Shown: piece by piece, positions 18,342-31,020 of the stretch
Layout of the letters: each line of letters begins with the position of its first letter
Position numbering within the stretch: position 1 is the stretch's first letter
Assembly: GCA_008802785.1 (NCBI GenBank)
Contig: VUYT01000008.1
Span: forward strand, 186,001 to 250,000
Length of the DNA stretch: 64,000 nucleotides
Reading direction: 5' to 3'
Source: Symmetrospora coprosmae
Taxonomy: Eukaryota > Basidiomycota > Cystobasidiomycetes > Symmetrosporaceae
Notes under the pieces: model-generated
The model's database searches: none
What the model was told of the DNA's origin: nothing
What the model saw: the letters and a program-made list of their open reading frames with translations, nothing else
Program-made: the position numbers and the translations under genes

Positions 18342-19742
18342 TCAGACTTGAGATCTACCGACTCTTGACGCTCTGGCCTCGAGCTTGGAAGCTGCAGCAC
18401 CGGGACCGGATCCGCAGGTGCATCAGGCATTGTCAGCCGTGTACTCCGCACCTTTCACGCATGATCAGAGCGCGCGGGCAGACATATCGGAAGCCCACCC
18501 TGATTGTCACACCGGTATATGCAGTCCCATCGGGCGCAACTGTCCGCTTGGATCGTTCGGTTACAACCTGGTCGTTGGTGACACCCATCCCGGTGATCTC
18601 GATTCGCGTCCGAAAGGGCGAGGCAGTGTAGCCGTACGTTTCGAGCGAGATGAAGTCGTAGTGATCCGTCCTGATCTTCTCTTCCCGCTCAAACTCCCAG
18701 CTCTGAATCTGCTCTTTGACGTTTTGAGGAATGTATGGCGAGTCAAGCGCCTCGCTTGGGGAGTAGAGCCACTGCATCACACCATAGAGCCAGACGATGC
18801 GTAGGTTCAGCTGTGACCATCTTTCAGTTGTCCACATCGAGTCTGCATCGCTCTCACCCGGACTTTTAGAAAGCCTAATGCAGCTCCGTCTGTTCTTGGG
18901 GTCGTGACAGCACAGCAGTCGATAACCTCGGCCGTCCAGTGCGACTTGAGTGGCAGGCTACACGGCTGGATCACCTTGCCTCCAGCGGGTACGGGAAGCG
19001 TATGTGGGTCCGGCAAGACGTAGATGTGCAAGCCTCGTCGGAAGGTCACTGCCTGGAAACCGCCTTCCTCATCCTCGAGCTCGGCTGCAGGGAAGGAGGC
19101 AGAGATGAAGAGCAGCGTGAGCATGGCTCTTCGTGGAGTCGGTTGGGACTGCGTACTACGGATTTTATCGCTGTTTACGAGGTTGAGCGTAGGTCGCATA
19201 TCAGCATTGCGAAATCTGCCGCGTAGAGGCGACTGCAGAGATCAGAACGAACTGGAACTTGACGGCCTGCCGTTCGAAGTCATCTGGAGTGACGAGGCGG
19301 CCTTGTACGTCCCAAGTGTACTGATGAGAGGCCAAAAGAAGGGCCGTGTCGGTGCGCGTTCAACCTGTCTGTCCGAACACCTCTCGCGGTGTAGTAATCA
19401 AGGCGGAACAGCTCGACGCACGTTCGGATACGCATGCGGTCCTCTGTGAGCTTCGCTCTCGTTCGTCGGAAGCAGCGCCTCGTCCCCTGCGAACCCGAGG
19501 CGAGATCAAGGTGGCATCTGGATCAGCTCCGCTCGTCCCGGCACAGAGCCATCCTCGCTTGCACAGGACTTCCAACGCTCACATATGGCAGGCAACGAGC
19601 GCTCGGCGCCTACAACTGCGAGGTATGGTGTTGGGATTGCGCCAGGGGACCCTCGCGGGATACGGGTACCACCAGACGCGGGTGCCGACTTCCGGGCTGC
19701 CCGCGTGGCCAGGAAAGGCCTCGGAACAGTGCCCTCTGCCAT
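18342..19742 (-). CDS. Unrecognised multi-exon protein with histone H3-tail-like N-terminus (downstream copy)
   Basis: Proposed exons: 19742-19583, 19486-19422, 19320 to about 19225, about 19148-18858, 18810-18513 and 18391-18342. The third-to-fourth junction is not resolved; the others keep frame and have GT-AG ends. Residues 1-25 (MAEGTVPRPF, LATRAARKSA, PASGG) align without gaps to H3 residues 10-34, with 16 of 25 identical. After it come an ERSLPAI / DEALLPT segment, HAYPN joined to YTWDVQGRLVTPDDFERQAV, a hydrophobic stretch (MLTLLFISASFPAA), GGFQAVTFRRGLHIYVLPDP, and FISLETYGYTASPF / RTRIEITGMGV near the end. I recognise no domain and claim no function. A different frame over exon 1 is also open (see rejected items), so the N-terminus needs transcript evidence. 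Two 5'-end copies lie upstream. Confidence 0.45.
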
Positions 19743-20139
19743 ACAGCAGTTCCTTCCCTTGACCGAGGTGATGAAGACTGCTCTGCTGCTGTGTGAGATG
19801 CCAGAAGGTCCATGACCGGTGGTGGTCTGAAGCAAAGAACCCAAACACGTGCCGACTGTCGCCGTCGCGCGACGTGAGAGACGCAAGGGCTCTCATCCGA
19901 GTCGCGAGCGTCCGACACAGACTGGCAGACTATGTGGATGCGTACATCGTCTGGTGTACATACGCTGAACCGCCTACAGGATAGTCGAGCAACACGGCTA
20001 GTCTGCCCGTCTAGGGTCCGGGGATTGCGAGGTGGAGGCCTATAACGAGCGTCGCGAAAGCAGCCGAGCAGTCAGTCAGTGACGATTCGACTGCTTCAGG
20101 AAGGCCCGCAATGCCCAAGCTGGCAAAGACTCAACTCAC

Positions 20140-20455
20140 ATGCGATCAGCACTGCCACTGCGACTCGCCATCAAGTCACCACGGGGCCCAGCGCCTCGAC
20201 GTCTGTGACTGAATAATAGCGAGGATGCGGATCAGCTCCGAGTCCGCTCCACGCGATGGTGTAGCATCCGTAGGGCTCTGCAGCGCTGGCTCTGCACAAA
20301 GCCATACGGGTCTATACTTACAGATGGCGGCTCTTCAGCGCTAGACTCAAGCGACGGCGGAACGAAGGCGTGTTGCGCACACCCCGGCCAGCTGGATTAG
20401 ATCTCCGCGCTGCGACAGCATTGACCTGTTTCCGTGGTGCTATCCCGCCCGTCAT
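20140..20455 (-). pseudogene. Middle copy: H3-tail-like 5' gene fragment
   Basis: Exon 1 is 20455-20322 and exon 2 is 20208-20140, with a strong GTAAGT donor and a TATTCAG acceptor, and a strong GTGAGT donor after exon 2. The first residues are MTGGIAPRKQ, then VNAVAARRSN and PAGRG; 15 of 25 match H3 residues 10-34 without gaps. No equivalent of the later exons of the downstream gene is seen before the next unit begins, and the exon 1 to exon 2 phase differs from the other two copies. It is either a truncated copy or a short independent gene; its frame is open for 113 codons or more across the two exons. Confidence 0.4.
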
Positions 20456-20854
20456 GTTGTATTGCTCTATGTGTGATATGAAGGGCTTGCTTCTGTAATG
20501 TTCAAGCGAAGTGCGCGAGTGGGTGTCGGAGCGGACCAGGGCGAGAGAATGCGGGGCCCGCGCGGGTGCATGAACCGGACGATGAGAGAGATGCACGGGG
20601 CAGATTTGCGAGAGCTCTTCTGGGTACACGAAGAGGTGGACGTGTTCGTCACATGGAGCGACAGACTAAGGGTATGTACGCCGTTCATTAACCGACACGC
20701 GCGATCTCCTGACAACTGCCCGAAGCCCGCGTGGCTAAGCTATGGAAGTGAGGAGGGATGCGGGGATCATGAGGATGCAGCTAGAATAATCAGTTGCGAG
20801 TCGTTTCCTTGGGGGATGTACGCGCCGGCATAGGCTGATGGCGGCTCGACTAAC

Positions 20855-21165
20855 CTTCCGACGGGACGAAGATCCACTCTGCTCGCTTCCGCTGGGTGAA
20901 GCGCCTCATCGTCTGCGACTGGGCGAGGGGGCCGCAAGCGAGTCAGCTCGCTGGACCTAATCGCCTCGCCTTGCTTCGTACTGTACGCACAGACGGGAGG
21001 AACGGCGCGTTCGAATCTGCTGGAACCGTTGTAAGGCGTCAAGGTAGGATGTCGACTATTAGACGTTGACGACGAGGTCGGACCTCGTGCCTCCCGCGCT
21101 GCCGGAGCAGTCTTTAGGGCCGCGACAGGGTTAATGAGATGCCTGGGTGCTTTCCCGCCTGTCAT
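20855..21165 (-). pseudogene. Upstream copy: H3-tail-like 5' gene fragment
   Basis: Exon 1 is 21165-20991 and exon 2 is 20918-20855, with a GTGCGT donor, a CTGAC branch site, a CGCCCAG acceptor and a following GTTAGT donor. The protein begins MTGGKAPRHL, then INPVAALKTA and PA; 13 of 25 match H3 residues 10-34, including TGGKAPR. It shares TPY ... ER..P..C spacing in exon 1 and ADDEALHP in exon 2 with the downstream copy (TPY ... ER..P, WDEALLP), in the same intron phase. The later exons are missing, so this looks like a 5' duplicate. Confidence 0.4.
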
Positions 21166-21487
21166 GTTGTGGTTGTCTGCTCGATCTGTGTCTTCTTTCC
21201 TTTGCTGTTTGATATGCGCGTGAGTGGGGTGTTGGAGCAGATGAGAATGAAACCGCCGGTTGAGAGAAGGGGGACTAACGGATGTCGACTTGACAACAGG
21301 GAGACGCAGAGTGCGGATCTGCGAGACCGCCACCACAGCAGACGTCAGTTCATCGTGAGGCAAGGCTCTATGATCCCACCGGCATTCTGTATCGCTACAC
21401 AGCCGCCCGCTAGGCGCTTTCCGTCATCCGCGTCCCATCCTACATAGTTCTTGCTGACTGCGGCGGCTTGCGCGCGACAATCCTGCA

Positions 21488-29348: not shown

Positions 29349-31020
29349 ATGAGCACCGACAGACCGAGAGTGACAATCCCCTCGTCCCACGCGGAACTCT
29401 CCGACAACCGCTTCAGCCGACTCATCCCCTCGCAGCGGATAGCCAACGTCGACACATTCGAGCTCGAGGAAGGCACAGTCCTGGAGAATGTACAGGTCGC
29501 ATTCAAGACATGGGGGAAGCTCAATGCACGCCGGGACAATGCCATGGTCATCTGCCATGCGCTAACGGGATCCGCCGACGTTGAAGACTGGTGCGTCACG
29601 AGTCATCATCATCTTCATGCGCGACGCGTGCGAGCAAGCGGGCGGCCGCCTCCTTGATCCAACACGCGTCAAGTGACGGGGTTGAGCTGACGTAGGTGAC
29701 TCTGCTACTGCTGCTCTCGTCAGGTGGGGACCCATGATGGGCCGCGGTCTGGCCTTTGACCCATCACGGTACTTCATCTTCTGCGCGAACGTCCTCGGCT
29801 CGCCATATGGCACAACCTCACCTGTGACGCTCAACCCGGCAACGGGCGAAAGATGGGGACCAGAGTTCCCGCTCGCTACAATTCGAGACGACGTCCGGCT
29901 GCACCGCTTGATCCTGGACCACCTCGGAGTGTCAAGCGTAGCTGCCGTCATTGGCGGGTCCATGGGCGGGATGCAGGTGCTCGAGTGGGCCATGCTGCAT
30001 GGCAAATCATACGTGCGCAACATCGTGCCCATCGCCACATCGCCGCACCACTCCGCATGGGGCATATCGTGGGGCGAGGCTCAGCGGCAGGCCATCTACA
30101 GCGATCCCAGCTACGAGGAAGGGTACTACGATGACGACAAGCCGCCCTCAATCGGTCTAGCTGCTGCGAGGATGGCTGCACTTCTCACATACCGAAGCAG
30201 GGACAGCTTCGAGAGCCGGTTCGGGCGGAGAGAGATGGAGAGCCGGGTGCCTAGCCCGACAGGCGTGCTCGCGAGTGCGACGAGTCTGGCCAACACCAGC
30301 AGCGGGAGCGACAGTGGGAGGGAGCGAGCACGGGAAGCGCACAATGACGGCTACCGGATACCGCCCAGCGGCTCCTCTCGGCGGAAGGGCTCTTCATCCT
30401 CTCTGGCATCATTGGGCGGCTCTTCCGGCTCCGCACCGACTGTCCCGGCATCGCCGCACGTCCCCGCGCCCGCCTCGCCCTCATTGACGGGCAACCCTGG
30501 CTCACTCACTGGCGCAGCCAAGCGGCCTTTCATCTACACGGCGCAGTCCTACCTCCGCTACCAGGGCGACAAATTCACCTCGCGCTTTGACGCAAACTGC
30601 TACATTGCCATTGGGCGCAAGATGGACTCGCACGATGTGTGCAGGGGCCGCATGCCAAAGTCTGTGGATGCATCATCGTTGTGGCACCCGCTGAATGAGG
30701 CACCACCGCATACTCTGGTGCTGGCCATCTCGTCAGACGCACTCTTCACCCTCGACGAGCAGCGAACGATGGTCTCGCAGCTGCCAGACGCCCGCTTGGT
30801 CGTCGTCGAGTCGCCAGAAGGGCACGATGGCTTTCTGCTTGAGTTTGAGCAGATCAACAAGCACATTCTGGACCATCTCAAGCAGAGACTGCCGGAAATC
30901 TATGCTGTCGAGCCGCTCGTCGAAGAGGATGAGACTGGCGAGGACGAGGCGGATGGCGTCAGAAAGATACAGAAGGATTCAGTCTTTGGGGAGGCAGAGG
31001 CAGATGTTACAGCTTGGTGA
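29349..31020 (+). CDS. MET2: Homoserine O-acetyltransferase
   Basis: Exons 29349-29590 and 29724-31020 give 512 residues. It is an alpha/beta hydrolase-fold acetyltransferase: VAFKTWGKLN, NAMVICHALTGSADV, WWGPMMGRGLAFD, FIFCANVLGSPYGTTSP, the nucleophile-elbow GGSMGGMQVLEWA, IATSPHHSAWG, ISSDALFT (acid) and the catalytic His in EGHDGFLLE are all present. It transfers acetyl from acetyl-CoA to homoserine, making O-acetylhomoserine for methionine and cysteine synthesis. A low-complexity Ser/Pro-rich insert of about 110 residues (roughly 270-390) splits the lid region and is absent from bacterial MetX. This is the only other methionine gene besides the gamma-synthase-like one in the window. Confidence 0.95.

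Follow-up and report, generated by a model that had tools for sequence, protein, structure and literature searches.

Three diverged tandem units carrying a histone H3 tail-like segment in Symmetrospora coprosmae

The stretch of Symmetrospora coprosmae DNA analyzed here (64,000 nucleotides, called the window) comprises bases 186001-250000 of a 735-kb contig, C75, in a genome of 20.05 Mb and 77 contigs. An array of three homologous units occupies positions 19293..21425 of its minus strand, each unit measuring about 710 bp and running from 260 bases ahead of an ATG to 450 bases beyond it. The three ATGs, at 21165 (copy 1), 20455 (copy 2), and 19742 (copy 3), are spaced by 710 and 713 bp, as a first-pass annotation of this DNA had claimed. 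The array lies 3' of two Na/H exchanger open frames on the same strand. Directly 3' of the array are two overlapping open frames of 174 and 144 aa (18433-19241, minus strand) that may be one spliced gene, with a sub-threshold, CUB-like Pfam match (E = 0.005). The window also encodes a Met2-like homoserine O-acetyltransferase (29686-31017), in which a Ser/Gly/Pro-rich low-complexity stretch of ∼80-90 residues was seen by eye inside the alpha/beta-hydrolase. Among the best 120 of its 4,145 matches, one relative shares 98% identity and a dozen share 63-71%; the first assigned to an organism are a partial Racocetra persica protein (42%) and then Mixia osmundae (57%), after which come mainly other basidiomycetes.

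Each ATG opens a segment resembling the tail of histone H3 (MTGGKAPRHLINPVAALKTAPAARE in copy 1, MTGGIAPRKQVNAVAARRSNPAGRG in copy 2, and MAEGTVPRPFLATRAARKSAPASGG in copy 3). Recounting gave the 13, 15, and 16 identities of 25 to canonical H3 residues 10-34 that had been reported for copies 1, 2, and 3, and comparison with the H3 genes of the same genome, which had been suggested, gave 14, 16, and 15 of 24 for residues 11-34. These tail residues are degraded in every copy. The motif TGGxAPR, previously ascribed to all copies, is present in copies 1 and 2 but not in copy 3, which has EGTVPR. When every 25-codon window free of stops in the 64 kb (74,359, counting both strands) was ranked by identity to H3, the copies took ranks 1-3; two windows scored 9, and all others scored 8 or less.

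A search of the whole 20-Mb genome with canonical H3 returned 20 stretches. Eighteen lie in genes labeled, by reading, as H3, CENP-A-like, or divergent H3, and the other two are copy 3 (E = 0.001) and copy 2 (E = 0.02); copy 1 was absent from the 20. With the copies themselves as queries, H3 genes were the best matches outside the own unit for copies 2 and 3 (E = 0.001 and 0.005), and for copy 1 the matches listed included neither H3 genes nor the other two copies. A PDB sequence search with copy 3 matched 121 chains with E-values of 10 or less. Of these, the 60 listed were H3, H3 chimeras, or H3 peptides, and in the best match (E = 1e-4) residues 4-37 of copy 3 align to residues 13-46 of H3.

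Past the tail segment the units do not look like H3, in agreement with the first-pass annotation. No Pfam family, including the histone fold PF00125, matched any of the three copies at E 10, and a divergent fold of the CENP-A kind likewise left no histone-fold family match in the copies. The canonical H3 query listed no globular H3 stretch in contig C75. The N-terminal ARTKQTARKS of H3 is missing, with the gene models beginning at the position of S10/T11. The units are therefore unlike ordinary histone or CENP-A genes, having no detectable fold and no residues 1-10.

The H3 tail is rich in Ala, Lys, Arg, Pro, Ser, and Gly, a composition that is common in GC-rich DNA, and the whole-genome E-values of single copies (0.001 and 0.02) are modest; both points would suit a chance likeness that was duplicated along with its unit. 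This explanation is nonetheless hardly credible in view of the distance to the next best window (9/25) and of the way in which the copies complement each other. Jointly, the copies hold 23 of the 24 residues at positions 11-34 of the genome's own H3, K23 alone being kept by none. Scored on canonical H3 they hold 22 of 24, whereas 20,000 random triples drawn from other ATG windows never exceeded 13 (mean, 5.0). Of the 6 positions at which both copy 1 and copy 2 deviate from canonical H3, copy 3 matches it at 4 (P = 4e-4), and where copy 3 deviates, copy 1 or copy 2 matches at 6 of 8 (P = 2e-4). Given these complementary residues, the common ancestor of the copies must have been close to H3 in this segment. 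A single chance match that was then duplicated would show independent loss in each copy from a mediocre start; complementary retention is not explained by such an origin, but it is by descent from an H3 gene.

Convergence, in which an unrelated small protein was selected toward the H3 tail, also appears improbable. It would accommodate the non-H3 remainder of the protein. It would also accommodate the synonymous sites of copy 1, which differ from those of the genome's H3 genes at a pS of 0.86-0.94, so that the descent of this copy is visible at the protein level only. However, the colinear match extends without gaps for at least 24 residues, 23 of 24 positions are recovered jointly, and lysines are the residues most often lost, whereas mimicry of histone marks would predict the opposite.

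Alignment of the three units at the DNA level had been set as a test of their relationship, and the homology does extend outside the 25 codons. Local alignment scores were compared with those of random segment pairs from the window. For full units, random pairs scored as high in 0/592 cases for copies 1 and 2, 1/592 for copies 1 and 3, and 12/592 for copies 2 and 3; for the segment after the tail (+75 to +450) the corresponding counts were 7/588, 2/588, and 3/588. The part before the ATG exceeds random for copies 1 and 2 only. The upstream DNA of copy 3 was not above random against copies 1 and 2 (144/597 and 60/597 as high), and neither was exon 1 when copies 2 and 3 were compared as DNA (263/598 as high). 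A 20-nt repeat at the start of exon 2 was detected independently, with spacings of 716 and 710. The homology of the units is that of old and patchy tandem repeats. When the genome was searched with each copy as protein and with the array as DNA, only weak matches were listed beyond the array and the H3 genes, among them C34:13500 (E = 0.09, copy 3) and C31:107695 (E = 0.56, copy 2). Two further matches to copy 1, at C75:616087 (E = 0.14) and C44:198224 (E = 2.1), have no H3-like start when translated and were dropped as chance.

Gene models were predicted for the three copies, with splice sites and the branch block recognized as consensus matches. For copy 1, translation and splice modeling place exon 1 at 20991..21165 on the minus strand (175 nt, MTGGKAPRHLINPVAALKTAPA...TPYNGSSRFERAVPPV), followed by a putative 78-nt intron at 20913..20990 (GTGCGT ... 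GAGCTGACT ... TCGCAG) that stays open in frame if retained, and by a modeled exon 2 at 20767..20912 (YDEALHP...), which reaches the stop codon of a predicted 106-aa protein. The copy 2 model, from the same kinds of evidence, has exon 1 at 20322..20455 (minus strand, 134 nt, MTGGIAPRKQVNAVAARRSNPAGRG...) and exon 2 at 20136..20202, joined through a GTAAGT donor and a CACAG acceptor to give 66 aa. Exon 1 of copy 3 was placed at 19583..19742 (minus strand, 160 nt, MAEGTVPRPFLATRAARKSAPASGG...TPYLAVVGAERSLPAI) from the splice model and the database relative P0002 described below. Its putative intron at 19487..19582 (96 nt, GTGAGC ... GAGCTGATC ... TTCGCAG) contains a stop, and the modeled exon 2 at 19398..19486 (WDEALLPTNE...) runs to the stop codon of an 82-aa protein.

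The sequence plan TPY...ER..P followed by DEALxP, earlier ascribed to the units in general, holds for copies 1 and 3, whose models share TPY..ER..P, an intron, and (Y/W)DEALxP and have predicted pI values of 9.7 and 10.7, but not for copy 2. The GTAAGT donor of copy 2 is a good one but is in phase 2, which puts its exon 2 in a frame other than that of copies 1 and 3. Matching donor positions, also claimed, were not borne out, with exon 1 models of 175, 134, and 160 nt and intron phases of 1, 2, and 1 in copies 1, 2, and 3. The branch site and the exon 2 start do match, GAGCTGAY ... CAG followed by GAGGCGCT being common to all three. Copies 1 and 2 have ATG contexts (CACAACATG and TACAACATG) that resemble those of the H3 genes; the context in copy 3 does not. 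On these models copy 2 is probably degenerate, and copies 1 and 3 still look translatable into basic proteins of the predicted 106 and 82 aa.

Relatives of the units were sought by a profile search of 5.8 billion proteins, in which 545 candidates yielded 100 hits at an E cutoff of 10. One of these, P0001, is copy 3's own open frame, from two contigs with lengths up to 8,040 bp. A second, P0002 (59 aa, source JGI, E = 2e-11), is a relative of copy 3 and comes from a single contig of 1,128 bp that is presumably metagenomic. Over 54 residues P0002 shows 7 differences from copy 3, besides one in-frame insertion of 3 residues, and a 16-residue block, PFLATRAARKSAPASG, is unchanged (0 of the 7 changes fall there, P = 0.07). 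All other profile matches had E-values of 5.6e-4 or worse; many have a histone domain or are named as H3, and the nine that were inspected all carry an H3 tail. Copy 1 alone, used as a protein-database query, found no relative among 14 candidates.

In tail codons 2-25, the difference between copies 1 and 2 amounts to 13 of 21.2 synonymous sites versus 14 of 50.8 nonsynonymous sites (Fisher P = 0.007), that between copies 1 and 3 to 15 of 21.7 versus 19 of 50.3 (P = 0.017), and that between copies 2 and 3 to 19 of 22.2 versus 22 of 49.8 (P = 0.0007). The pS values are 0.61, 0.69, and 0.85 and the pN values 0.28, 0.38, and 0.44, in the same order, with the nonsynonymous counts biased downward because the 24 codons were noticed for their H3 likeness. 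Copies 1 and 3 also differ at 9.5 of 14.0 synonymous versus 7.5 of 37.0 nonsynonymous sites in two downstream blocks of 17 codons, which were picked for protein similarity. Together with the database relatives, codon usage, and neutral simulation, these comparisons give moderate evidence of past protein-level constraint on the tail rather than proof of a present function; such constraint, like the coding status and splicing of the units, is supported but not proven. The array also overlaps several further open frames of 60-153 aa, located on both strands, and the units could in principle belong to some longer transcript or gene read in another frame, the tail frame being incidental today. This is very improbable, given that the synonymous bias sits in the tail frame and that the predicted protein P0002 uses the same frame.

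The units may be decaying relics, a truncated H3 copy that was tandemly duplicated and is untranslated now or was never translated, with a likeness that awaits erasure; we regard this as possible but do not favor it. Copy 2 has lost the downstream frame, the codon usage of all three models is no different from the spread seen in random stop-free windows, and the lack of a database relative of copy 1 is likewise what relics would show. In a neutral simulation starting from the H3 tail, at least 14 of 24 identities survived with a probability of 0.50 at 0.3 substitutions per site, 0.06 at 0.5, and 0.0005 at 0.8, and in 0 of 4,000 runs at 1.0 per branch. The synonymous distance of 1.27 between copies 1 and 2 is the sum of two branches, or ∼0.6 per branch since their split, at which neutral survival would be rare but not negligible; the simulation alone thus leaves room for relics. 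The distances of the copies from the genome's H3 genes are longer, however, at least 1.48 (two branches summed, partly saturated), and improbable neutral survival would be needed in three copies. Relics are also hard to reconcile with the synonymous bias in all three pairs, the open spliced frames of copies 1 and 3 with their common plan, and the open frame of P0002 with its in-frame indel.

The genome's canonical H3 genes lie on contigs C44, C15, C26, and C4. Three of the four (C44:837936-838483, C4:1906-2577, and C15:7392-7934) are within ∼0.5 to 8 kb of a contig end, a position that is either subtelomeric or due to the assembly breaking where histone genes are repeated. The gene on C4 (900-3800, minus strand) has many short introns, including one near the start codon and one within the T11 codon, so that, as judged by eye, a single exon encodes residues 11-42. 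By the same kind of reading, the genes on C44, C15, and C26 lack the start-codon and T11 introns, which suggests intron loss among the H3 paralogs. A divergent H3 variant was read by eye at C8:128300-130800 (minus strand), with a histone fold, a rebuilt tail (SGKTPRKTPMLSAAGSKSTGGVKKP), and a longer C terminus ending in KGKSKR; this locus is possibly an H3 variant gene of the species.

An exon such as that of the C4 gene, encoding residues 11-42 and so covering nearly the same span as the H3 similarity, could have been captured singly to found the array. We keep exon capture only as a possibility, because T11 is retained in copies 1 and 2 although the intron splits its codon; a donor at the 3' end of a C4-type exon was not seen in the copies. 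Upstream DNA was compared with that of the C44 H3 gene, using random segments rather than other gene promoters as the reference; random segments scored as high in 0/400 cases for copy 2, 9/400 for copy 1, and 218/400 for copy 3. The other three H3 genes gave mixed results (8-359 of 400 random segments as high). CT-rich leaders are common, which complicates any upstream likeness to H3 genes.

The reading that we favor, with a probability of roughly 0.55, is that a 5' fragment of an H3 gene fused with other sequence, underwent tandem duplication, and has been retained in part in the form of small basic proteins. The first-pass annotation had proposed a degraded H3 5' copy, fused and then duplicated, as one of two origins, and it is this one that complementary retention, tandem DNA homology, and the missing histone fold favor. 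Specifically, a 5' piece of an H3 gene, encoding approximately residues 11-40 but neither residues 1-10 nor the histone fold, would have joined non-histone sequence to yield a small two-exon gene. The M-T-G-G-K start could have arisen if, as one route, H3 residues 1-10 were lost behind the frame's own ATG. Two tandem duplications would have followed, with the lineage of copy 3 probably splitting first and copies 1 and 2 afterward, and, for much of the subsequent period, selection would have preserved the tail segment at the amino acid level. We infer that the product is a short, disordered basic protein able to occupy a partner of the H3 tail.

What such a partner would recognize may be judged from the retained residues. 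G13, P16, R17, A24, A25, P30, and A31 are present in all three copies, and lysines are kept at 4 of 12 positions compared with 41 of 60 for other residues (Fisher P = 0.046, uncorrected). This loss speaks against a lure for lysine marks. A lure aimed at acetyl- or methyl-lysine enzymes would be expected to keep its lysines, so a partner, if there is one, more likely engages the Pro/Arg/Ala framework or nucleic acid than acetylated or methylated lysines. Lysines kept in individual copies (K27 in copies 1 and 3, K14 in copy 1, and K18 in copy 2) leave a mark-based role for single copies possible. The other origin that had been proposed, a tail mimic binding H3 readers, is a possible one: the synonymous bias and the unchanged core of P0002 fit a selected peptide, and the lost lysines tell against a lure for lysine marks. 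A tail-decoy role for the units is possible. It is doubtful that they form a full H3-descended decoy family, in which the tail, cut from its fold and tandemly multiplied, would be kept to occupy chromatin enzymes or readers with a different submotif in each copy (TGGKAPR in copy 1, APRKQ in copy 2, and AARKSAPA with its flanks in copy 3).

Few proteins are as constrained as histone H3, and a freed, tandemly copied H3 tail would reveal the tail residues that are important when there is no nucleosome. Provided that they are translated and nuclear, the products would be natural H3-derived tail competitors and a test of whether eukaryotes build histone mimics from histones. If the units are relics, they would be a clean example of a partial gene copy joining new sequence and decaying.

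Compared with histone H3 itself, as encoded by the same-genome genes, the units share residues 11-34 (14-16 of 24 per copy) but differ in lacking residues 1-10 and the fold and in having a non-histone C terminus and a different gene structure. CENP-A/CenH3 and the divergent H3 variants (contigs C20 and C8, labeled by reading) are, like the units, H3-derived with a changed tail; these proteins keep histone-fold sequence, and the units do not. EZHIP/CXORF67 is described as an H3K27M-like inhibitor of PRC2 (PMC6513997). On that description the units, if translated, would share with EZHIP the property of a non-histone protein with an H3-tail-like peptide. They would differ from it in that their peptide appears to be H3-descended and has Lys or Arg rather than Met at position 27. 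A further difference is that no PRC2 component was detected here by VEFS-box and preSET_CXC searches, though these gave no match in control genomes either. The 20 SET stretches listed for the genome included ones that by eye, from their motifs, read as SET1-like and SET2-like, and none that read as EZH2. Among the literature matches listed, which cover few subscription journals, no fungal gene built on an H3-tail fragment was reported, nor was a case such as the units would represent, in which a partial gene copy is chimeric and carries a mimic-like peptide. In general, chimeric new genes and partial duplicates arise when a parental fragment is joined to new sequence and then tandemly amplified. 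The units differ from the general case in that the parent is among the slowest-evolving proteins and the part retained is the tail without the fold.
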